DNA of 34,140 bases from an uncultured Bacilli bacterium (GTDB lineage: Bacteria > Bacillota_I > Bacilli_A > RF39 > UBA660), in assembly GCA_947623665.1 (NCBI GenBank), contig CANQHJ010000010.1, forward strand, positions 1 to 34,140, in the 5' to 3' direction. The translations under genes were made by a program, and so were the position numbers. The notes beneath the pieces are model-generated. The model made no database searches. It was not told the origin of the DNA and was given only the letters and a program-made list of their open reading frames with translations. Every line of letters begins with the position of its first letter. Positions within the stretch are counted from its first letter, which is position 1. Of this stretch, positions 23,275 through 34,140 are shown in pieces.

Positions 23275-23323
23275 ATAGTCAAAAAAAATATTGTATGTTA
23301 ATATTAAATTAGGGGGAAGCAAT

Positions 23324-25630
23324 ATGGAAGAATTGATAAATAAATTATTTCTAAAAATAAAAAAGCCTATATCATTAGAAGAAATTTTTATTATTGCTAA
23401 AGCAGATACTTTAGAAAAAAGAAAAGAGATAGAAAAAATTATAAGGGAAAAAAGTGAAAAATATGAATTATATCACTCGGAAGAAGGATATATTTTAATA
23501 TATAAAACATCCAAAAGAGTTGGAACATACCATAGTAATGGTACAGATAAAAAAATAGTAGTTGATAATAAACAATATCCATTACTTTTAGATAAAACAA
23601 ACAATGCTATTGATAGAGATAAAGTATTAGTAGATATTCCAGCATTTAATTTAATTGGACAAAATCTAACAGAAGAAGAAAAAGAGTTAAAAAAGAATAA
23701 ATCAGTTATTATAGAAAAAATAATAGATAGAAATTTAGATAGTATAATTGGTACAATTTATCAAGAAAATGACCAATATTTTGTAATGCCATCTAAAGAA
23801 GAATATAAAACATTAAAAATTTTATTAGAAGGAAAAGATTATGAACCAGGACAGAAAGTATTTGTAAAATTAAAACAAGAAGAAAATTCTACAGATACAA
23901 ATACTTATTATCCATCATTAATAGAAAAAATAGACTTTGAAGAAAGTTTAGATGATATAGCTTTAGAAGCATATAAATTTGGGATATATAGAACTTTTAC
24001 AGAAGAAACAAAAGAACAAATAAAAAACATTCCAGATACAGTAAGAGAAGAAGATAAAAAAGGTAAAGCAGACCTTACAGATTGGGAAATCTTCACAATA
24101 GATGGAGATAATACCAAAGATATAGATGATGCTATATCCTTATACGAAGATAAAGATGGAAATACAGTTTTAGGAGTACATATTGCATACCCAGCTTATT
24201 ATATAGAAAAAGAAAGTCCTTTGTATAAAGAAGCATTATCAAAAGGAACAAGTTGTTATCCCACAACAGGAAGAGTATTTCCAATGTTACCTAAAAAACT
24301 ATCCAATGGAATATGTTCACTTAATCCAAATGTAGAGCGTCTTGCAATATCATATATAATTACTTTTGATAAAAATGCTAATGTAATAGATTATAAAATA
24401 ATGGAAAGTGTAATTAAATCGAATATCCAAATGACTTACAATAAAGTAGAAGATTTATTAAGTAAAGGTATTATTCATGAAGGGTATGAAGAACACAAAG
24501 AAACTCTAGTAAAAATGCAAACTCTTGCAAAAAAATTAGAAGAGAAAAGAAAAAAACGTGGTGCCTTAATGCTAAATTCTAAAGATATTAAAATATCTAC
24601 AGATAAAGATGGAAAAGCTAATGCAATTGAAGAGAGAACACGAAGAGAATCAGACAAAATAATAGAATCCTTTATGGTTGTAAGTGCAGAATGTTATGCA
24701 AAATTTTGTGAACAGAAAAACATTCCATGTATTTATAGAAACCATGATGTCCCATTACAAGAAAACATAAATAGATTTATAAAAGAATTAAAACTATATG
24801 GTATAGAGTATAATGAAACTGTTGATGTAAATGATTACAACAGTATTCAAAAATTTTCTGAATATATAATGGAACACGATATCCAAGGACAGATATTAAT
24901 GAATATGTTTATTAGAAATTTAAGAAAAGCAAATTTTGGAGTAGAAAATATAGGACACTGTGGACTAGCAAGTCCAGGACATGTACCAAATACATCTCCT
25001 ATGAGAAGAGGAAACGATTTTATAGACCAATATGTATTAAAAGAAATATATTTAAGTAAAATTTCCTCACCACAAGTAAAAGAAGAAATAGAAAAAAACA
25101 TTCCTGCTCTTAGTAAACATCAAATAAAAAACCTAACAGTATCAAATAATATGTTAAAAAAAGCAGAGAAGCCTCTTACACTTGTAAGAATAGCCTGGGA
25201 AAAAACTTTATCTTTAGTAACAAGCCATTTATCTACTCAAGAAATAAAAGCTAACAAATGTGAAAGATCTGTATGTCATATGAAAATGGTAGAAAAAATG
25301 ACAGAAGAAATAGGAAAAGATTGCAAAGGAACAATAATAGGACTTAATAATAAAAATATAACAGTTATGTTAGATAATTCTGCAGAAGTAATAATCCCAT
25401 TAAAAAACTTACCAGAAGAAGAATGTACTTATGATAGAAAACTAGGATATATAAAATCAGAAAATAATAATTATTTCTTTGGAGATAAAGTAATAGTAAA
25501 AATAGAAGATGCTAATACAGAAGATAGAAAAATATATTGTCATCTAACAGAAAAAATAGAAGAAAATGCAGCATGTAGTGAAAGTGTAAAAAAATATAAA
25601 AAACAAATTAAGAGTGGAGGTATACAATGA
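23324..25630 (+). CDS. Divergent RNase R-like exoribonuclease, first of a tandem pair
   Basis: This 768-residue protein has the RNase R layout: N-terminal winged-helix-like part (about 1-60), two cold-shock-like parts (about 65-200), RNB domain from about 250 and a C-terminal S1-like domain. The metal-binding aspartates are kept in FTIDGDNTKDIDD (Asp260, 266, 268, 269). Several conserved RNB positions are changed: HIADVS becomes HIAYPA (Tyr289), and the TSPIRRYPD motif becomes TSPMRRGND (about 557-565). Catalysis is likely retained, but substrate path or specificity probably differs from canonical RNase R at 8004. The start follows AGGGGGAAG; an upstream in-frame TTG is less likely. The second copy overlaps its stop by four bases. 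Confidence 0.85.
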   Translation: MEELINKLFLKIKKPISLEEIFIIAKADTLEKRKEIEKIIREKSEKYELYHSEEGYILIYKTSKRVGTYHSNGTDKKIVVDNKQYPLLLDKTNNAIDRDKVLVDIPAFNLIGQNLTEEEKELKKNKSVIIEKIIDRNLDSIIGTIYQENDQYFVMPSKEEYKTLKILLEGKDYEPGQKVFVKLKQEENSTDTNTYYPSLIEKIDFEESLDDIALEAYKFGIYRTFTEETKEQIKNIPDTVREEDKKGKADLTDWEIFTIDGDNTKDIDDAISLYEDKDGNTVLGVHIAYPAYYIEKESPLYKEALSKGTSCYPTTGRVFPMLPKKLSNGICSLNPNVERLAISYIITFDKNANVIDYKIMESVIKSNIQMTYNKVEDLLSKGIIHEGYEEHKETLVKMQTLAKKLEEKRKKRGALMLNSKDIKISTDKDGKANAIEERTRRESDKIIESFMVVSAECYAKFCEQKNIPCIYRNHDVPLQENINRFIKELKLYGIEYNETVDVNDYNSIQKFSEYIMEHDIQGQILMNMFIRNLRKANFGVENIGHCGLASPGHVPNTSPMRRGNDFIDQYVLKEIYLSKISSPQVKEEIEKNIPALSKHQIKNLTVSNNMLKKAEKPLTLVRIAWEKTLSLVTSHLSTQEIKANKCERSVCHMKMVEKMTEEIGKDCKGTIIGLNNKNITVMLDNSAEVIIPLKNLPEEECTYDRKLGYIKSENNNYFFGDKVIVKIEDANTEDRKIYCHLTEKIEENAACSESVKKYKKQIKSGGIQ

Positions 25631-27921
25631 AAGAAAAAATAGAAAAAGTATTGCATTTAACAAAAGGATATTTATCTCTTGAAGAAATATTTTATCTTAC
25701 TGGAACAACGACCCAAGAAGAAAAAGAAGAAATAAAAAAATATCTTCAAAAACAAGTAAAAAATTATGAGATAGATTATCAAAATGATAAATATATTCTA
25801 ATGAGAAAAACATCAAAAAGAAAAGGTGTTTTTAAATCGGGAAAAACAATTGATAAAGTAATTGTTGGTAATGAAGAATTTATATTAGAAAAAGATGAAA
25901 TACATAATGCTATAGATAAAGATGAAGTATTAGTAAATATTCCATATTTAGAATATAATAGAACAAAAAAAAGTAAAAGAAAAAAGAAGACTAAAAAATT
26001 AAATCATGTTACCATAGAAAAAATAATAAATAGAAACTTAGATAGTATGATTGGACAAGTATATCAATATAAAGATAAGTTCTATTTAAGACCTGATGAT
26101 AAAGAAAAAAGAAAATTAAAAGTAGAACTAACAGGAGATGATTTTGTTCCAGGAGAAAAAGTGTTTGTAAAACTAAAACAAGATAAACAATCACTAGATA
26201 ATAATATGTATCATACAAGTATGGAAGAAAAAATAGGATTTGCAAATGAACCAGAAACAGATATTCAAATGGAAGCATATAAATTAGGAATATATAAAGG
26301 ATTTTCCAATGAGACTTTAGAAGAATTACAAGAAATACCAAATGAAGTAAGAGAAGAAGATAAAAAAGGAAAAGCAGATCTTACAAATTGGGAAATATTC
26401 ACAATAGATGGAGATGATACTAAAGACATAGATGATGCTATATCTTTATATGAAGATAAGGATGGAAATACAGTTTTAGGAGTACATATAGCATATCCAG
26501 CATATTATATAAAAAAAGATGGAGCAATCTATCAAGAAGCTTTACTTAAAGGAACAAGTTGCTATCCAACAAGTAGTAGAGTATTTCCAATGTTACATCC
26601 AAAATTATCTAATGGAATATGTTCACTTAATCCAAATGTAGAACGCCTTGCCCTATCTTATATAATTACTTTTGATAAAAATGCCAATGTAATAGATTAT
26701 AAAATAATGGAAAGTGTAATCAAATCAAATATTCAAATGACTTATACTAAAGTTAATGATTTATTAGATAAAAATATAATACATAACGGTTATGAAGAAC
26801 ATAAAGAAACACTATTAAAGATGAAAGAATTATCAGATAAATTACAAGAAAAAAGAAGAGCTAGAGGAGAATTAAATATATTAAGTAAAGAATTAAAAAT
26901 ATCTTTAGATGAAAAAGGAAAAGCAATTTCAATAGATACTAGAGAAATGACTACATCAGATAAAATAATAGAATCATTTATGGTTGCAAGTGCAGAATGT
27001 TATTCTGACTTTTGTACAAAATATAACATTCCATGTGTATATAGAAATCATCAAGTACCAGAATTTTATAAAATTAATAAATTTTTACAGCTTTTAGAAT
27101 CATGTGGAATGCCATATAAAGAAAAAATAGATTGCAATAGTTATAAGAGTATTCAACAATTATCTGACTTTGTAAATGCAACAGGTCAACTATCACCAGT
27201 ATTAATTAATAGATTCGTAAGAAGTCTACAAAAAGCCGATTTTGGTCTTGAAAATATAGGACATAGTGGACTAGCAAGTTCAGGGCATGTACCAAATACT
27301 TCTCCAATTAGAAGAGGAAACGATTTTATAAATCAATATTCACTTCAAGATTTATATCTATATAGAATAAATTCTCAAGTAGTACAACGACAAATAGAAG
27401 AAAAAATTCCAGAATTACATAAAAAATCTATTGCAAATTTAAAAATATATGCTAATATGAATTGGTACAGTAATGAAACATTAGCACTCAAACGAACACA
27501 ATGGAGTGAAGAAATAGATTCACTAACAGAACATTTATCACTTCAAGAAATAAATGCAGATAGATGTGAAAGACTTGTTAATAAAATGAAAATTGCAGAA
27601 AAAATGTCAGAAGAAAAAGGAAAAATTTATGAAGGAATAATTAGTGGTTTTAATCAGAATAATATCTATATTCAATTGGATAATTTAATAGAAGGATTTA
27701 TTAATGTACATCAATTACCTGGTAATCATATTTATAACGAACAAGATAATTATATAAAATCACCTAATAATGAAGACAATTATTATTTTGGAGATAGAAT
27801 AAAAGTCTCTGTTAAATCTGCTAATAAGAAATTAAAACAAGTAGAATTTAAACTAGAAGAAAAAATAAAAGAAAATACTCTTTGTAAAAAAGTAATAAAT
27901 TCAAAAACAAAGAAAAAATAG
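25627..27921 (+). CDS. Divergent RNase R-like exoribonuclease, second of a tandem pair
   Basis: The 764-residue protein is a close paralogue of the preceding one, with long identical stretches such as KDIDDAISLYEDKDGNTVLG. Asp261, 267, 269 and 270 are intact in FTIDGDDTKDIDD. It shares the same deviations from RNase R: HIAYPAYYI, SCYPTSSRVFPML and TSPIRRGND. Differences from copy one concentrate in the N-terminal 200 residues and in the S1-like end (YEGIISGFNQNNIYIQLDNL), which in this copy looks closer to a normal S1 domain. The genes overlap as ATGA with GGAGG upstream, so they are translationally coupled and may form a hetero-oligomer or a substrate-specialised pair. A hairpin and tRNA-Thr follow. 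Confidence 0.85.
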   Translation: MKEKIEKVLHLTKGYLSLEEIFYLTGTTTQEEKEEIKKYLQKQVKNYEIDYQNDKYILMRKTSKRKGVFKSGKTIDKVIVGNEEFILEKDEIHNAIDKDEVLVNIPYLEYNRTKKSKRKKKTKKLNHVTIEKIINRNLDSMIGQVYQYKDKFYLRPDDKEKRKLKVELTGDDFVPGEKVFVKLKQDKQSLDNNMYHTSMEEKIGFANEPETDIQMEAYKLGIYKGFSNETLEELQEIPNEVREEDKKGKADLTNWEIFTIDGDDTKDIDDAISLYEDKDGNTVLGVHIAYPAYYIKKDGAIYQEALLKGTSCYPTSSRVFPMLHPKLSNGICSLNPNVERLALSYIITFDKNANVIDYKIMESVIKSNIQMTYTKVNDLLDKNIIHNGYEEHKETLLKMKELSDKLQEKRRARGELNILSKELKISLDEKGKAISIDTREMTTSDKIIESFMVASAECYSDFCTKYNIPCVYRNHQVPEFYKINKFLQLLESCGMPYKEKIDCNSYKSIQQLSDFVNATGQLSPVLINRFVRSLQKADFGLENIGHSGLASSGHVPNTSPIRRGNDFINQYSLQDLYLYRINSQVVQRQIEEKIPELHKKSIANLKIYANMNWYSNETLALKRTQWSEEIDSLTEHLSLQEINADRCERLVNKMKIAEKMSEEKGKIYEGIISGFNQNNIYIQLDNLIEGFINVHQLPGNHIYNEQDNYIKSPNNEDNYYFGDRIKVSVKSANKKLKQVEFKLEEKIKENTLCKKVINSKTKKK

Positions 27922-27940
27922 AAAACATTAAGTTTTCTAT
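27918..27940 (+). other. Hairpin between the RNB pair and tRNA-Thr
   Basis: ATAGAAAAC (27918-27926) pairs with GTTTTCTAT (27932-27940) over a five-base loop. It overlaps the stop codon and ends two bases before the tRNA. There is no T run, so it may mark RNA processing or mRNA 3'-end protection rather than termination; the tRNA may be cotranscribed with the RNB genes. Confidence 0.5.
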
Positions 27941-27942
27941 AT

Positions 27943-28018
27943 GCCGACTTAGCTCAGTTGGTAGAGCAACTCATTCGTAATGAGTAGGTCAAAGGTTCAA
28001 GTCCCTTAGTCGGCACCA
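27943..28018 (+). tRNA. tRNA-Thr (anticodon CGU)
   Basis: The 76-base gene folds as a standard cloverleaf: acceptor GCCGACT/AGTCGGC, D-arm AGCTCAGTTGGTAGAGC, anticodon stem ACTCA/TGAGT with loop TTCGTAA (anticodon CGT, reading ACG), T-arm with GGTTCAAGTCC, discriminator A, and an encoded CCA. ACG is a rare codon in such AT-rich DNA. No duplicated 3' end was seen downstream, so there is no sign of an element integrated here. Confidence 0.97.
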
Positions 28019-28029
28019 TTTATGATTAT

Positions 28030-28053
28030 ACAACCAAATTAGGTTGTTTTTTT
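28030..28053 (+). terminator. Terminator after tRNA-Thr
   Basis: ACAACC (28030-28035) pairs with GGTTGT (28042-28047) across a six-base loop and runs into TTTTTTT. Confidence 0.85.
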
Positions 28054-28079
28054 GTGATAAAAGTTAATTGTTTGTATCT

Positions 28080-28114
28080 TATCATATATGTATTTTTCTT
28101 ATATATGATATAAT
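28080..28114 (+). promoter_or_regulatory. Extended -10 promoter overlapped by an inverted repeat
   Basis: TGA-TATAAT (-10 at 28109-28114) lies 35 bases before the ATG at 28150. A perfect ten-base inverted repeat, TATCATATAT (28080-28089) and ATATATGATA (28101-28110), with an 11-base spacer covers the -35 region and runs into the -10 box. That placement suits a repressor operator. AT-rich palindromes are common by chance in this genome. Confidence 0.45.
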
Positions 28115-28149
28115 ATAGTTAAGTAAATATTAATTAAGAGGTAAAATGC

Positions 28150-29565
28150 ATGAACAAAGAAAAGTTAGAAGAAATAGTTATAAGAAAATATTTAAATAAT
28201 GAAGATTATGTTGTTAGAATTGAAAAAGAAAAAAAGAAAGAAAATGGAAAAATTAAATATCAAAAAGACTTTGTTGTAAAAGTATACTATCAAGGTATTC
28301 AAAGTTTTATGGTAAAGAAAAATGAATTGACATTAAATGTTGCAATGTTTACATTGAAAGGAAATAAACCATTTACTCCTGTTCATGATGATAAAATAGA
28401 ATATTTAAAAGACAAAGGATTTCATTTTCAAATAGGCTTTAATAGTAGTGGAGATTTAAGAAATGAAACACATAAGAAATATTATCTAAAAATAAAGCCA
28501 TCTAAAAATATTGAATTATATAAGAATAATCAAAATATACAAAATGAAATGAAAGAAATGCTAAAAAAAGTAAAGGATTATAAAAAAGATGCTATTCATA
28601 AAGAAATAGATAATATAAATTATTTCTTATTTGATAATAATGATATTGAATATAATGATCTTATAAAATTAACAGCTAAATTAATAAGAAAAATTGAAGG
28701 TGTCCAAAAAATAGAATGTAATGAAAAAATTGTTTCTCCAAAAAATATAAATGAAGAAGATTTACAAAAATTAGATAAAATTATAAATGAAAAACAAGAA
28801 GAATATAATAAAGCAGATACAAAATCATCAGATACAAAATTATATGGAGAAAAAATGTTTCAACAAAATCTTATGGTTAAAATGAATAAGGCTAAAACGG
28901 GTAAAGATATAAGTATTTTAAATAAAGAGCCATTTAATAAAAATACTCATGCATTCTTAATGGAATATAATTTTTATGAGGCAAGTTATATAGAAAAAAC
29001 AAGACAAAGCAAAAAAGGAAGAGTAGATAATTTATTTATAAAAGACAATAAAATATTATTTGTTGAACTTAAATATGATGAAAATGTTATTGGGGGAAGT
29101 CATGGAATCCATAGACATTTAATTGATATTTATAATAGTAGTAAGAAAAATAAACAATTTAGAGAAGAGATATATGAAGATGTAAAAATTTATAATGAAG
29201 GATTAAAAGAGTATATTCAAGATTATCAAAAATATCAAATTGATATTAAGAAAGATGGTTTTGATAAAGATATAGAGTTTGTCATCATTTGTGGTTATAG
29301 TAATGGTAATAAAGAAAAAGTAATTGAAGAAATAAATAGAGTAAAAAATATGACTTTTAAAGATTTTGTTGAATCAAAGGAAGTTACTTATGACGAATAT
29401 AAAAAAGAAAAAAAAGCATTAGGCAAAAACGATGAAAAACTTTTAAATATGAAAGTAACAGAATTAATTGAAGAAATGGAACATATAGATAATAAATTTA
29501 AATGTGATGTTAATATATATTTAAGTGATGAAAATTTCACAAATATTGAAAAAGTATCATTATAG
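28150..29565 (+). CDS. Unrecognised protein with a C-terminal PD-(D/E)xK-like nuclease core
   Basis: I do not recognise a named family in this 471-residue protein. Residues 1-120 form a beta-rich part with conserved-looking patches (QSFMVKKNELTLNVAMF, FTPVHDD, GFHFQIGFNSSGD); residues 130-240 are highly charged and probably helical. The C-terminal third has GRVDNLFIKDNKILFVELKY, with Asp293, Glu306 and Lys308 in the exact D-x12-ExK spacing of PD-(D/E)xK nucleases, followed by a helix with GIHRHLID. A role in cutting or binding nucleic acid is therefore likely, but target and biology are unknown. The ATG has AGAGGT upstream. The gene stands alone between tRNA-Thr and a terminator that overlaps its stop. 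Confidence 0.65.
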   Translation: MNKEKLEEIVIRKYLNNEDYVVRIEKEKKKENGKIKYQKDFVVKVYYQGIQSFMVKKNELTLNVAMFTLKGNKPFTPVHDDKIEYLKDKGFHFQIGFNSSGDLRNETHKKYYLKIKPSKNIELYKNNQNIQNEMKEMLKKVKDYKKDAIHKEIDNINYFLFDNNDIEYNDLIKLTAKLIRKIEGVQKIECNEKIVSPKNINEEDLQKLDKIINEKQEEYNKADTKSSDTKLYGEKMFQQNLMVKMNKAKTGKDISILNKEPFNKNTHAFLMEYNFYEASYIEKTRQSKKGRVDNLFIKDNKILFVELKYDENVIGGSHGIHRHLIDIYNSSKKNKQFREEIYEDVKIYNEGLKEYIQDYQKYQIDIKKDGFDKDIEFVIICGYSNGNKEKVIEEINRVKNMTFKDFVESKEVTYDEYKKEKKALGKNDEKLLNMKVTELIEEMEHIDNKFKCDVNIYLSDENFTNIEKVSL

Positions 29566-29578
29566 ATGCTTTTTTTTA
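29550..29578 (+). terminator. Terminator overlapping the stop of the PD-(D/E)xK-like gene
   Basis: AAAAGTATC and GATGCTTTT (29550-29558 and 29565-29573) pair with one G-U over a six-base loop, followed by a T run. The stop codon lies in the loop and first stem base. Confidence 0.7.
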
Positions 29579-29583
29579 TTGTA

Positions 29584-29641
29584 TTTACAGCCTTTTACAG
29601 TAAACTTTACATGAAATGAACCAAATAGTGAAAGTTTTACA
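29584..29641. repeat. Four TTTACA repeats in the intergenic region
   Basis: TTTACA occurs at 29584, 29594, 29606 and 29636, the first three about one helical turn apart. The cluster sits just before the promoter of the beta-CASP gene and could be a binding array. The motif is short and AT-rich. Confidence 0.35.
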
Positions 29642-29649
29642 CGCACAAT

Positions 29650-29678
29650 TTGAAAAGAAAAAAATAAAATGCTAAATT
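29650..29678 (+). promoter_or_regulatory. Promoter for the beta-CASP/exonuclease-fold operon
   Basis: TTGAAA (29650-29655), a 17-base spacer and TAAATT (29673-29678) with a TGC extension lie 24 bases before the ATG at 29703. Confidence 0.45.
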
Positions 29679-29702
29679 ATATTCCAAAAGGAAGGAAAAC
29701 AT

Positions 29703-31442
29703 ATGAAAAACGATATTAAATTATTTGAGGATTATGTTTTAAAAAAAGCAAGAAAGTATTATTCTAATAATATTCCAAAAAACATGAAAGAAGTTTTAGA
29801 TAAGGAGTTAGAATATATAAAAAGCCATGAATTAATAGATACTATTTATATGGTTGAAAATATTTTACATTATGATAAAAAATATATAGGTTCAACATAT
29901 TTAACAGGGGATTTAGAAAATTCTTTAGTATTATATATTTTAGGATTAACTAAAAAACCAGACAATTACCATATAGATTCTTTTAATGGTAAATCATATT
30001 ATATTGAGTTTAATGTAGATGAATTATTTCTAGAAGATGTAAAAAATGAGTTCGTAACATTATATAAAGAAAAAATTATAACTGATGAAAATATGGATTA
30101 TAATGAATTTTTATTTCTTAAAGGAGATTATAATTCTAAAGATCTAAATTCTAATAGGAATGATTATTGTAATATAATTTCATTTAGTAGTTTTAATCCG
30201 AAAGAAAATAATAATAATTTGAAAGTAAGAATAATTAAAGGAACTAATCAAATCGGTGGTTGTATTACTGAAATAGAAAGTAAAGATGCTAGAATTATAA
30301 TTGATTTTGGAGAAGATTTACCAGATGAAGAAACAAAAGGAAAACATGAGAACCCTATGATAGATGGTCTTACAACAGGTATAAAAAAATATGATGCAGT
30401 ATTTATTACACATAGTCATGGTGATCATATTGGTCTTATTGATTATATTCTAGATGATATTCCTGTATATGTTGAAAAAGAAAGTAAAAAAATATATGAA
30501 TTATTAAATGCATTTACATATAAAGAAACTAGATTCAAAACAAGAAAGATGGAATTTAATAAACCAATTATGATTAAAGATATGAAAATAACTTTATTTA
30601 TAATAGATCATTCATCATACAATTCCGGAATGTTACTTATAGAAAGTAAAGGTAAGAAAATACTTCATACAGGAGATTACAGAAATCATGGAAGAAAGGG
30701 TAAAATATTTACAAAAACTCTAAAAGAAATTGGACAAGTAGACTTACTTATTACAGAAGGAACAACTTTCGGAAGAAAAAAAGAAAAATATAAAACAGAA
30801 GAAGATTTAGAAGAAATAGAAAGAAAAATATTTAAAAAATATAATCAAATATTTATATTACAAGCATCAACTAATATTGATAGAATAGTAACTTTTTATA
30901 AAGCATCTAAAAAAAATAAAATCTTTATAGAAGATATATTTACTGCAAATATTACAGATGCTTTAGATAGTAAAATACCAACACCTAAAAAATTTTATAA
31001 TGTCTATGCATGGATACCATTAAAATATCAAAAAAAGTCTTTGAAGTTTAAAGAAAAATATTTTAAGCCCTTTGAAGAAAAATGTGATTCAAAAGTGGTA
31101 TTTCAAGATTTCACTATGCTCATAAAAACATCTATGTTAAAAGATTTAGAAATGTTAAAAGAAAAAGATGCTATTACTAATGCTTGCTTAGTGTATTCTA
31201 TGTGGGAAGGATATTTAGAACAAGATAGTTTTAAAAACTTTATAGAAGGTGCAAAAGAGTTGGGAATAGATTATAAATTTATACATACATCAGGGCATGG
31301 AGATGATGAAGCAAGAAAACTTGTTGAAGAATATATAAAACCAAAAAAAGTTATCCCAATACATACAGAAAATAAAGAACAAGCAAAAGAAGTGTTTAAA
31401 AATGCTATTATATTAGAAGATAATGAAGAATTAGAAATATAA
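29703..31442 (+). CDS. RNase J-like beta-CASP metallo-hydrolase with an unusual N-terminal domain
   Basis: The 579-residue protein has two parts. Residues about 190-579 are a metallo-beta-lactamase/beta-CASP nuclease related to RNase J: THSHGDHIG (His237, 239, Asp241, His242), His303, HTGDYR (Asp325), ITEGTTFG, TSGHGD (His532) and IPIHTE (His554). All metal and beta-CASP motifs are present, so activity on RNA or DNA is expected. Residues about 34-110 resemble the palm of C-family DNA polymerases (DnaE/PolC): YLTGDLENSLVLYILGLT aligns by eye with the G-R-G-S-x-x-S-L-V-x-Y-x-L-G-I-T motif, while the catalytic Asp pair appears replaced in YIEFNVDE. It is followed after 18 bases by an exonuclease-fold gene. 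Confidence 0.75.
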   Translation: MKNDIKLFEDYVLKKARKYYSNNIPKNMKEVLDKELEYIKSHELIDTIYMVENILHYDKKYIGSTYLTGDLENSLVLYILGLTKKPDNYHIDSFNGKSYYIEFNVDELFLEDVKNEFVTLYKEKIITDENMDYNEFLFLKGDYNSKDLNSNRNDYCNIISFSSFNPKENNNNLKVRIIKGTNQIGGCITEIESKDARIIIDFGEDLPDEETKGKHENPMIDGLTTGIKKYDAVFITHSHGDHIGLIDYILDDIPVYVEKESKKIYELLNAFTYKETRFKTRKMEFNKPIMIKDMKITLFIIDHSSYNSGMLLIESKGKKILHTGDYRNHGRKGKIFTKTLKEIGQVDLLITEGTTFGRKKEKYKTEEDLEEIERKIFKKYNQIFILQASTNIDRIVTFYKASKKNKIFIEDIFTANITDALDSKIPTPKKFYNVYAWIPLKYQKKSLKFKEKYFKPFEEKCDSKVVFQDFTMLIKTSMLKDLEMLKEKDAITNACLVYSMWEGYLEQDSFKNFIEGAKELGIDYKFIHTSGHGDDEARKLVEEYIKPKKVIPIHTENKEQAKEVFKNAIILEDNEELEI

Positions 31443-31460
31443 AAGAAGGAGATAATATAT

Positions 31461-32486
31461 ATGGAAAATTATGTAATAATAAATACAGATGAAAATGATT
31501 TTTTAAAAGATCCATTCGATGATACTTCTCTAATAAAATTAGAAGCAATTAAAATCGATAAAAACTTTAATGAACTAGATAGATTTTTTGAATATATAAA
31601 ACCAAAAAAAGAATTATCAAAAGAAATAGAAGACATAACAGGAATAACTAATACTATGTTAAAAGAAAAAGGTATTTCTCTAAAAGAAGCTTTAGAAAAA
31701 TTTTTAGATTTTAAAAAAGACTCTTCTTGGATTATTGGTTATTATGCAGATTGGGATATGTCTCTTGTTGTAAAAGGAATATATGAAACTAAGATTGAAG
31801 ATAATAATATTATGAATTTTATAAGTTTAAGGGATTATATAGAGTGTAAAACTGATTTAAGAAAAAAAGTTAAGTCCCTAAAGTTCGATAACGTTGTTAA
31901 CTACTATAATATAAAATATAATGATTTAGAAAAAGAGTGGCTGGATATAACTATAAGTTTATTAAAAATATTAGTTAAAAAAGAAAATGTAGAAACAATA
32001 GAAGATTTTAAAGAAAAAAATATTCCAAAATTTTTATTTCAAGGACTTTCTAAAAGAAGTACAAAAGTAAAAGTTAGATTTCATCATGGAAAAGATGAAT
32101 TTGCTATAAGAAATATAGAATTTATAGATAAAACACCTGATAGAAAAGTCTCATATGTAACAGCATATAATGCAATAAATAGATATGAAACTACTTTTTA
32201 TGAATTGATACTTTTTAGAAAATGGGGCGCTCAAATAATAGATGACTTTATTTATATAAATGATAATAATATAGATTATATAGACTTTTATTTTATTAGA
32301 AAAGATATTAAAGATAAAGAACTTTTAGAAAGTCTAAAAAATAATATTTCATGTTTAGATAAATGTGAAAGAAACTTAAGGTATGATGGTACTCTGAAAG
32401 AGCTAAAAGAACACTGTAAAGAACTTGGAAAAGATAATTTAAATAAAATAATAGAACATATAAAAATAAAAAAAAGAAAAAAATAA
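31461..32486 (+). CDS. DEDD exonuclease-fold (DnaQ/PolC epsilon-like) protein with degraded active site
   Basis: The first 180 residues of this 341-residue protein follow the DnaQ/PolC proofreading pattern: YVIINTDEND where exonucleases have V-F-D-x-E-T-T-G, then LIKLEAIKID, FFEYIKPKKELSKEIEDITG, ITNTMLKEKG, and IIGYYADWDMSLV where the second acidic residue (Asp) is kept. The first D-x-E pair reads N-x-D and the final H-x4-D is not clear, so catalysis is doubtful. Residues about 190-341 are unrecognised and end in a lysine-rich tail (KIKKRKK) that may bind nucleic acid. It is in an operon with the beta-CASP protein, with GAAGGAG upstream, and may act as a binding or targeting subunit. Confidence 0.6.
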   Translation: MENYVIINTDENDFLKDPFDDTSLIKLEAIKIDKNFNELDRFFEYIKPKKELSKEIEDITGITNTMLKEKGISLKEALEKFLDFKKDSSWIIGYYADWDMSLVVKGIYETKIEDNNIMNFISLRDYIECKTDLRKKVKSLKFDNVVNYYNIKYNDLEKEWLDITISLLKILVKKENVETIEDFKEKNIPKFLFQGLSKRSTKVKVRFHHGKDEFAIRNIEFIDKTPDRKVSYVTAYNAINRYETTFYELILFRKWGAQIIDDFIYINDNNIDYIDFYFIRKDIKDKELLESLKNNISCLDKCERNLRYDGTLKELKEHCKELGKDNLNKIIEHIKIKKRKK

Positions 32487-32515
32487 TAGTAAATAACAAT
32501 TTATATTAAGAAATA

Positions 32516-32538
32516 GTAAACTAGTGAGTTTGCTTTTT
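32516..32538 (+). terminator. Terminator after the exonuclease-fold gene
   Basis: GTAAACT (32516-32522) pairs with AGTTTGC (32527-32533), with one G-U, over loop AGTG; TTTTT follows. Confidence 0.7.
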
Positions 32539-32557
32539 CTTTGGTAAAAAGTTATAA

Positions 32558-32585
32558 TTGTATAAATAATTGATTCAACTATAAT
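32558..32585 (+). promoter_or_regulatory. Promoter for the HExxH gene
   Basis: TTGTAT (32558-32563), 16 bases, TATAAT (32580-32585), 22 bases before the chosen ATG. The leader would be short. Confidence 0.4.
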
Positions 32586-32607
32586 ATTGGATTTGGATGT
32601 GATGATT

Positions 32608-33354
32608 ATGAAAAATAATAAAATTCCCGTTATTAAATTTAAACCAATGGACATAAATGATAATATTACTCTTGTTAAAGAGTTTTATTTTTTAGAAAAC
32701 GATTCCATTAGTACGCATGAATTTACATTACAACTTTTTCCTAAACTTAGAGATATAGATAATAATATAAGTAAAGAAAGAAAAGAAAAAATAATAGATA
32801 ACGTCGTAAGAGAAGAATATAAAAAAGAAAGAGATAATATTATAAAAGATGTAGAAAGATATAATGGTTTATGGAAAGATTATAATGATAAATATTTTAA
32901 TACACTTTGTGAGTACTTTGGAGTAAATTTTCCAGATGATTTAAATGTAATAGATGCAACAGTTGGACTTTTACCTGTTAATCCTAGATTTTTAGATAGT
33001 TATAGTTTTTCTATTTGTTGCGGTGAAAAGAAAGATAAAGTTATAGAAACTTGTGCACATGAAACTCTTCATTTTATATGGTTTATTAAATGGAGGAATC
33101 TTTTTCCAAATACTAAAAAATATGAAATGGACTCCCCTTATTTAGTTTGGAAATATAGTGAAATGGTAACAGACCCTATTTTAAATAATAAACCTTTTGA
33201 TACTTTTAATTTTAGAGAACATGGTTATGATAATTTATATAAAATTATGGACGGAAATATCAAAGTCATGGATAAGCTTAGAGAATTATATTCTAAAGAT
33301 ATTTCTATTGAAGAGAAAATAAAAGATGGATTTGAGTACATAAAAAAAATATAA
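32608..33354 (+). CDS. HExxH-motif protein, probable zinc metallopeptidase fold
   Basis: This 248-residue protein carries CAHETLHFIWF with His151, Glu152 and His155 (HExxH), and a downstream acidic candidate third ligand in KYSEMVTD (Glu185). That is the gluzincin-like layout: two His and one Glu about 30 residues later. The N-terminal 110 residues are charged and helical, with no signal peptide or membrane segment, so it should act in the cytoplasm. I cannot place it in a named peptidase family. The ATG at 32608 is chosen by spacing from GGATGTGAT; an ATG six bases earlier is also possible. It has its own promoter and stands alone. Confidence 0.6.
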   Translation: MKNNKIPVIKFKPMDINDNITLVKEFYFLENDSISTHEFTLQLFPKLRDIDNNISKERKEKIIDNVVREEYKKERDNIIKDVERYNGLWKDYNDKYFNTLCEYFGVNFPDDLNVIDATVGLLPVNPRFLDSYSFSICCGEKKDKVIETCAHETLHFIWFIKWRNLFPNTKKYEMDSPYLVWKYSEMVTDPILNNKPFDTFNFREHGYDNLYKIMDGNIKVMDKLRELYSKDISIEEKIKDGFEYIKKI

Positions 33355-33374
33355 AAATATACTTAAAAATAAAA

Positions 33375-33403
33375 TTTATAATTAATATAAAATATAGTAT
33401 AAT
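33375..33403 (+). promoter_or_regulatory. Promoter for the NMNAT-like gene
   Basis: TTTATA (33375-33380), 17 bases and TATAAT (33398-33403), 42 bases before the ATG at 33446. Confidence 0.45.
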
Positions 33404-33445
33404 ATATTTATAAGAAAACTAAACGATAGAAAATGGGGTGATAAT

Positions 33446-34042
33446 ATGAAAAATAATATTAAAGTAGGAGTGTTTTTAGCAAGAATGCAACCTATACATA
33501 ATGCTCATTTATACATGGTAAAAAAAGCCCTAGAAGAATGTGATAGAGTATTAATTGTCTTAGGTAGTGAGAATAAATCTAATATGTTAAGAAACCCATA
33601 TGATGTTAATTTAAGAAAAGAAATGTTAAGAGAATGTTTAGATATGGATGAAAATAATAAAATTTCCATAATAACATTGCCAGACTGGTCAACAGAAGAA
33701 AATCATGAAGATACAAAAATATGGGGAAGATACTTTTACTATAATGTAGTATCTAGAATATCACAAAAACATTTTTCATTATATTATTCTGATGATAAAG
33801 AAATACTTGATAGTTGGTTTAAAAATACAGAAGTAGAAAAATATATAACTTACCGTAATTTTGATAGAGCTAATTTATTTGAAGGTTTATCAGCAACCAA
33901 AATAAGAAAAGCACTTATAGAAGATGATTATGATTATATAAAAAAGTTTTGTCCACAATCAGTAGTAAATCGTTTTGAGTTATTAAAGTCATACTATGAG
34001 GAAGTAAGAAAAAATCCATGTGAAGATTTCACTATGGAATAG
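33446..34042 (+). CDS. Nicotinamide-nucleotide adenylyltransferase-like nucleotidyltransferase (NadM/NadR type)
   Basis: The 198-residue protein begins GVFLARMQPIHNAHLYMVKKALEE, matching the nucleotidyltransferase start G-x-F-x-R-x-Q-P-x-H-x-G-H with the paired His of the H-x-x-H site kept (Gly replaced by Ala). It continues with LIVLGSENKS, NPYDVNLRKEMLRE and the C-terminal LSATKIRKAL, which corresponds to the I-S-G/S-T-x-I-R motif. Such enzymes join NMN (or a related nucleotide) and ATP to make NAD. This form resembles archaeal NadM and the NadR core, not NadD. The gene has its own promoter and GGGGTGAT ribosome-binding site. Other cytidylyltransferase-fold activities remain possible. Confidence 0.8.
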   Translation: MKNNIKVGVFLARMQPIHNAHLYMVKKALEECDRVLIVLGSENKSNMLRNPYDVNLRKEMLRECLDMDENNKISIITLPDWSTEENHEDTKIWGRYFYYNVVSRISQKHFSLYYSDDKEILDSWFKNTEVEKYITYRNFDRANLFEGLSATKIRKALIEDDYDYIKKFCPQSVVNRFELLKSYYEEVRKNPCEDFTME

Positions 34043-34044
34043 AT

Positions 34045-34082
34045 AAAAATTTAAAATCTCAGATTTTAAATTTTTATTTTTT
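34045..34082 (+). terminator. Terminator after the NMNAT-like gene
   Basis: A 15-base perfect inverted repeat (34045-34059 and 34061-34075) with one central base, so the real loop is formed by opening inner pairs, followed by ATTTTTT. The remaining 58 bases to the window end hold no feature I can support. Confidence 0.75.
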
Positions 34083-34140
34083 GAGTTCCGGTAAAAAATA
34101 GGAAACAAAAGAAAAAATGAATTTGTGTTTTCCACAGATT

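Follow-up and report, generated by a model that had tools for sequence, protein, structure and literature searches.

Among the beta-CASP nucleases, the SNM1-type enzymes are repair nucleases and a histidine in motif C is the mark of the RNA type; inactive homologues of family Y polymerases are known scaffolds. In type VII CRISPR-Cas, the beta-CASP protein Cas14 is an immune effector that is accompanied by inactivated scaffold proteins (PMC10910872). In the ImuA-ImuB-DnaE2 mutasome, the non-catalytic scaffold is made of an inactive polymerase together with a RecA-fold protein, according to the available portion of a 2026 survey of bacterial polymerases, a portion that describes no inactive C-family group (PMC12926913).

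The window, i.e., the whole stretch of 34,140 nucleotides analyzed here, is one contig of the 1.4-Mb genome of a small, gut-type bacterium of the class Bacilli and contains a mobile cassette of three genes that recalls each of these systems in part (Table 1). With type VII CRISPR-Cas (Cas14) the cassette has in common a beta-CASP protein, here a putative effector, combined with an inactivated putative scaffold, and the beta-CASP family of the window matches Cas14 by sequence. Unlike in type VII, however, the putative scaffold is derived from the replisome, the other two genes of the cassette show PD-(D/E)XK and exonuclease features, no cas5 or cas7 homologue is recognized among the neighbours, and no CRISPR-like repeat array was found near the cassette (positions 24000-34140 searched). 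The likeness to the ImuA-ImuB-DnaE2 mutasome lies in the pairing of an inactive polymerase with a RecA-fold partner as a putative scaffold, whereas the cassette, taken together with its larger relatives, employs an inactive homologue of family C rather than family Y and a DnaB-like ATPase, has nucleases as the active parts and is mobile. The likeness to PolC itself comprises the palm segment, in relatives also the PHP and partial fingers regions, and a homologous exonuclease fold; compared with PolC, active sites are lost (PHP and the dNTP loop in the best-preserved relatives, the aspartate pair in some relatives and in the window) and the clamp-binding and OB parts are absent. Literature searches found no described system of such makeup, and PADLOC 2.0.0 matched no component to the core proteins of a known anti-phage system, the exceptions being a match to a DEDDh model of generic scope and a weak one to WYL.

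Extent and mobility of the cassette

The three genes, arranged in a row on the same strand, constitute one cassette that is shared with a bacterium of a different genus (genome G004): blastn aligns the two loci at 86.9% identity over positions 28081-32487 and at 76% from there to 32588, where the similarity ends. The flanks are unrelated, the right one being comparable over only ~0.5 kb of G004. Between these two genomes, dS amounts to 0.14-0.39 for the cassette genes and 1.33 for the host PolC; therefore, the cassette has moved recently. The tRNA-Thr gene beside the cassette is the likely context of insertion. Only 18 bp separate the fusion gene from the exonuclease gene, and a promoter scan gave a result at chance level.

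The original prediction had treated the fusion and exonuclease genes as a unit of two. Their coordinates and reading frames proved right, both belong to the cassette, and the two are adjacent in the second genus as well; the gene before them (28150-29565), which encodes the commonest partner of the nuclease, had been missed.

Table 1. Features of the cassette and its immediate surroundings in the window (aa, amino acids).
Feature	Positions	Strand	Evidence or remarks
tRNA-Thr	27943..28018	+	Directly left of the cassette
Terminator-like hairpin	28030..28047	+	Between tRNA-Thr and the cassette; 1 found vs 0.4 expected
Mobile cassette	28081..32588	.	Shared with a second genus, G004, between unrelated flanks; blastn
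PD-(D/E)XK-motif protein, 471 aa	28150..29565	+	Motif GRVD-(x)-VELK, residues 290-308 (29017-29073)
Fusion protein, PolC-palm-like N-terminus and MBL/beta-CASP nuclease, 579 aa	29703..31442	+	Profile matches, motif alignment
PolC-palm-like domain, residues 1-172	29703..30218	+	PF07733; relatives' profile; homology firm over ~1-103, detected to 126
MBL/beta-CASP nuclease domain, all catalytic motifs	30219..31439	+	PF12706, PF00753, motif conservation
PolC/DnaQ-type exonuclease fold with degenerate active site, plus C-terminal half, 341 aa	31461..32486	+	Profile matches

Two further loci flank the cassette. A tandem pair of RNase R-like genes (23291-25630 and 25627-27921) lies directly upstream of the tRNA-Thr gene, outside the part conserved in G004, and positions 32587-33354 encode a 255-aa protein with an HExxH-like stretch (AHETLHF) and a possible metalloprotease fold that matches no family.

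The nucleases

The D...ExK motif of the first protein is kept in all its relatives, and only 2 of 285 background ORFs carry such a motif. The protein has no match in Pfam or among solved structures; its AlphaFold model has a pLDDT of 37, with an alignment that is shallow and, as for the fusion protein, consists of the rows of the window, L033 and L034 only. Its N-terminal half changes fast (dN/dS 0.71). Across phyla, no partner of the beta-CASP family is commoner than a gene of this kind, which flanks it in Chloroflexota, in a second family within the class and on plasmids from six further genera (Butyrivibrio, Rhizobium, Ochrobactrum, Cereibacter, Sphingomonas, and Cupriavidus). This nuclease pair is apparently the core that the loci have in common.

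The beta-CASP domain of the fusion protein starts at residue 173 and comprises 407 aa. It contains HSHGDH at residues 237-242 (30411-30428) together with H303, D325, E352, H532, and H554, and the catalytic motifs (HxHxDH, the other MBL metal ligands and beta-CASP motifs A-C) are invariant over 15 relatives, in agreement with the intact nuclease of the original prediction; both PF12706 and PF00753 score above their cut-offs on the MBL part. The MBL and beta-CASP motifs are those of RNase J, aCPSF1 and EF2904; by sequence, RNase J and EF2904 are the nearer relatives of the domain and SNM1 is more distant, and the motif-C histidine that it carries points to a beta-CASP enzyme of the RNA type. The designation as RNase J-like does not hold, however, in the sense of orthology. 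Compared with RNase J, aCPSF1 and EF2904, the family is short (~410 aa), forms a family of its own and has a PD-(D/E)XK-motif neighbour; the RNase J models score far below their cut-offs (TIGR00649, 65.9 bits vs 400; NF047419, 78.6 vs 820), RNase J is a protein of ~550 aa with a C-terminal domain, and another ORF of the genome is of the RNase J type.

A second beta-CASP clade (L048-L055 and L127; ~395 aa) is devoid of polymerase parts, and several of its copies adjoin a gene for a ClpP-like protease and a ~103-aa ORF.

Parts derived from replication proteins

The relation of the N-terminal region to C-family polymerases, proposed originally from the order of motifs, is supported by two profiles, the searches having produced polymerase matches. 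The Pfam profile PF07733 (alpha subunit of C-family polymerases) matches residues 8-84 with E=3.2e-4 and 20.8 bits, against a curated cut-off of 23.9 that relatives of the window protein pass clearly. A profile of the relatives only, trained without the window protein and its near twin, yields 32.8 bits on residues 1-172 (E=6e-8; E-values of such home-made profiles rest on small sets of related sequences), and none of 20,000 shuffled versions of that segment exceeds 16.1 bits. The family profile of the relatives, in turn, matches the solved PolC 9qpc with E=4e-70. A profile built solely from intact PolCs of the family does not detect the palm part of the window, and hhalign against intact PolC gives a probability of 34% over residues 2-36. 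The link between the window palm and PolC runs through intermediates and is weak when measured directly against intact PolC. In the AlphaFold model, pLDDT is below 50 over residues 34-171, with a shallow alignment of 3 sequences.

The strand YIEFNV of the window sits where the catalytic D-x-D is expected, in an alignment that is good to residue ~103 and weak beyond. At YIEFNVDE, where the original prediction noted changed acidic residues, D-x-D is replaced in this alignment; the exact equivalence of YIE with D-x-D is plausible but less than certain. The GSRGS motif is replaced as well.

The third protein of the cassette is, in accord with its original assignment, a PolC/DnaQ-type exonuclease homologue in which D-x-E has become N-x-D. 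It matches the respective PolC region (E=6.5e-14), PF00929 (38.2 bits vs a cut-off of 24) and PolC exonuclease structures (E=7e-16), and reads N8-T9-D10 at the D-x-E position, with the third aspartate kept and the region of the active-site histidine lost. Its twin in G004 reads N-x-E, and a relative in G142 keeps D-x-E without the histidine.

In the six best-preserved degenerate PolCs among the relatives, the HxH of PHP is lost and the GSRGS dNTP loop is changed throughout, whereas D-x-D is kept in four and lost in two. These proteins group together in a single, long-stemmed clade (100% support), at ~36% identity to any PolC, and constitute an old lineage of their own; an origin by recent decay of polC in the host was considered and rejected on these grounds and because the genome has a separate, intact PolC. 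The DnaB-like proteins of the relatives match PF03796 (DnaB_C; E down to 4.6e-13) and solved helicases (E=1e-3), and their Walker A motif is broken. Given the dead active sites of PolC, DnaB and exonuclease and the intact nuclease motifs, the replication-derived parts are therefore inactive or losing activity, and the two nuclease domains are intact. Between the window and G004, the palm part has a dN/dS of 0.31 and the beta-CASP domain one of 0.14, which indicates purifying selection.

A second family of degenerate PolC is represented by an orphan 346-aa protein consisting of dead palm and fingers, which is 63% identical in two genera (L086:5537-6574 in G000:C25 and L179:6631-7668 in G276:C5) and is located away from the nuclease.

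Larger clusters in related genomes

Leaving aside matches to RNase J, the beta-CASP family itself is encoded in ~20 of the 243 genomes of the bacterial family, in 27 of 288 genomes drawn at the level of the order, 9 of 395 at the level of the class and 3 of 392 at the level of the phylum. The recurring gene order is: regulator, KOW/NusG-like protein, DnaB-like ATPase, degenerate PolC, second DnaB-like ATPase, beta-CASP, PD-(D/E)XK. The regulator is found in 8 of the 243 genomes, all 8 of which also have the beta-CASP gene. The nuclease is recurrently paired with polymerase parts, as predicted: a palm or a degenerate PolC lies beside the beta-CASP gene in 15 of the 20 loci examined, of which three are near-identical, so that independent cases are fewer, and two (G221 and G142) are split over contig ends; the genomes are MAGs, in which contig ends cut several clusters.

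The architectures of the palm-containing proteins are diverse: PHP, palm and fingers (748 aa), PHP and palm with partial fingers (666-684 aa), PHP and palm (593-640 aa), a DnaB-like fusion (903 aa), a palm by itself (353 aa), a palm that follows another protein (543 aa), and the palm-beta-CASP fusion of the window. In G325, the cluster contains no palm, and plasmids of Proteobacteria carry the pair of nucleases without polymerase parts. The window, unlike the larger clusters, has no regulator, DnaB-like or KOW gene, and this minimal version may work differently.

The clusters are horizontally transferred and their nuclease modules are swapped. Genomes G175 and G270 are 69% identical in PolC and 76-88% in the genes of the cluster; among G225, G086 and G190, the host PolC shows 59-66% identity and the degenerate PolC 84-87%, and between G225 and G190 the degenerate PolC is 86% identical vs 41% for beta-CASP. 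An origin from phages was examined and rejected: the only matches to the nuclease in viral contigs were short, distant ones of the MBL type, the fusion protein and the degenerate PolC had no match there, and the matches in phage records were to ordinary PolC-like proteins or distant.

In G276, the cluster (L123:4381-10475) and an intact, full-length polC are 95 bp apart; the respective 1590-aa PolC was considered as a full-length copy of the system and rejected, since no other intact full-length PolC was found in G276. Restriction-modification genes, WYL regulators, DUF1016 nucleases and a recombinase occur among the neighbours of the clusters, as anecdotal observations. A YhcG/DUF1016 PDDEXK nuclease gene adjoins the cassette in two genera (L036:11238-12338 and L121:4445-5521). 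In the Butyrivibrio proteoclasticus plasmid pCY186 (L129/L137), the beta-CASP gene, a PD-(D/E)XK-motif gene and a WYL gene are located near genes for two degenerate DnaE-like palm proteins, dnaX, PolC and DnaB.

Possible functions

The reading that we favour, to which we give an even chance, is that of a mobile, defence-type nuclease cassette in which dead replisome parts would link the nucleases to replication, as adaptors or as baits. It fits because the distribution is patchy, the clusters are transferred, effectors are exchanged, two nucleases are present, some parts change fast, and the neighbours include restriction-modification, WYL, DUF1016 and recombinase genes. Cas14 offers a precedent for a beta-CASP effector of immunity with an inactivated scaffold; counting against the reading are the lack of PADLOC matches, the weak direct link of the palm to intact PolC and the smaller gene set of the window. 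For such a cassette we infer a defensive role, protein binding and an order of events along the following lines. The PD-(D/E)XK-motif and beta-CASP proteins would be live enzymes, with the PD-(D/E)XK motif suggesting DNA and the motif-C histidine suggesting RNA as the substrate, whereas the PolC-derived palm and the exonuclease fold would no longer catalyze anything and would serve as protein-binding adaptors or baits. As adaptors, they would dock on a foreign replisome; as decoys, they would mimic the host PolC and DnaB, such that a phage attack on the host replisome would be sensed and the nucleases freed. The specific version in which inactivated PolC (PHP, palm and exonuclease) and DnaB are the bait that triggers a PD-(D/E)XK and beta-CASP effector, which would amount to a new form of immunity by replisome mimicry, is a tentative proposal with perhaps one chance in four.

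Several other readings were weighed against this one. The genes could be worn-down replication genes of a former mobile element, with the nucleases acting in copy control or competition; this module for replication and maintenance of an element would account for the mobility of the clusters and for pCY186, where the nuclease genes and the two degenerate palms lie near the plasmid's own PolC, DnaB, dnaX and initiators. It is nevertheless improbable, given that the clusters examined in the bacterial family include no initiator or complete replisome gene, that the degenerate parts are under purifying selection and have moved with the nucleases, and that on plasmids of Proteobacteria the nuclease pair does without polymerase parts. 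Slightly less probable still is a mutasome-like repair complex, in which the inactive polymerase and a RecA-fold scaffold would play the parts of ImuB and ImuA for DnaE2 and the beta-CASP enzyme would act like SNM1 on crosslinks or breaks. Complexes of an inactive polymerase with a RecA-fold protein do exist (PMC12926913), but the patchy, horizontally transferred distribution, the greater similarity of the beta-CASP domain to RNase J and EF2904 with its RNA-type motif-C histidine, and the lack of an active polymerase partner in the cassette all argue against a role in repair.

That the nuclease pair works alone, and that palm and exonuclease are chance hitch-hikers on their way out, appears unlikely to a somewhat greater degree: many bacteria have the pair without polymerase parts, as does the palm-less cluster of G325, yet polymerase parts persist in three quarters of the loci and in several architectures, with dN/dS well below 1. 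Least credible by far is a host RNA-processing factor, a paralogue of RNase J with a structural N-terminal extension. The RNase J models do match the MBL part, but at scores far under their cut-offs, and the accessory distribution and the separate RNase J-type ORF speak against such a function.

Implications

Under the favoured reading of a defence-type cassette, these genes look like an undescribed nuclease system, probably directed against viruses or plasmids. If this is true, replication proteins would have found a new use in a mobile lineage that couples live nucleases to dead parts of PolC, DnaB and exonuclease, and whether bacteria guard the replisome with decoys becomes directly testable. 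The simpler PD-(D/E)XK and beta-CASP pair, which occurs on plasmids in several phyla, would itself qualify as a candidate module of defence, likewise undescribed.
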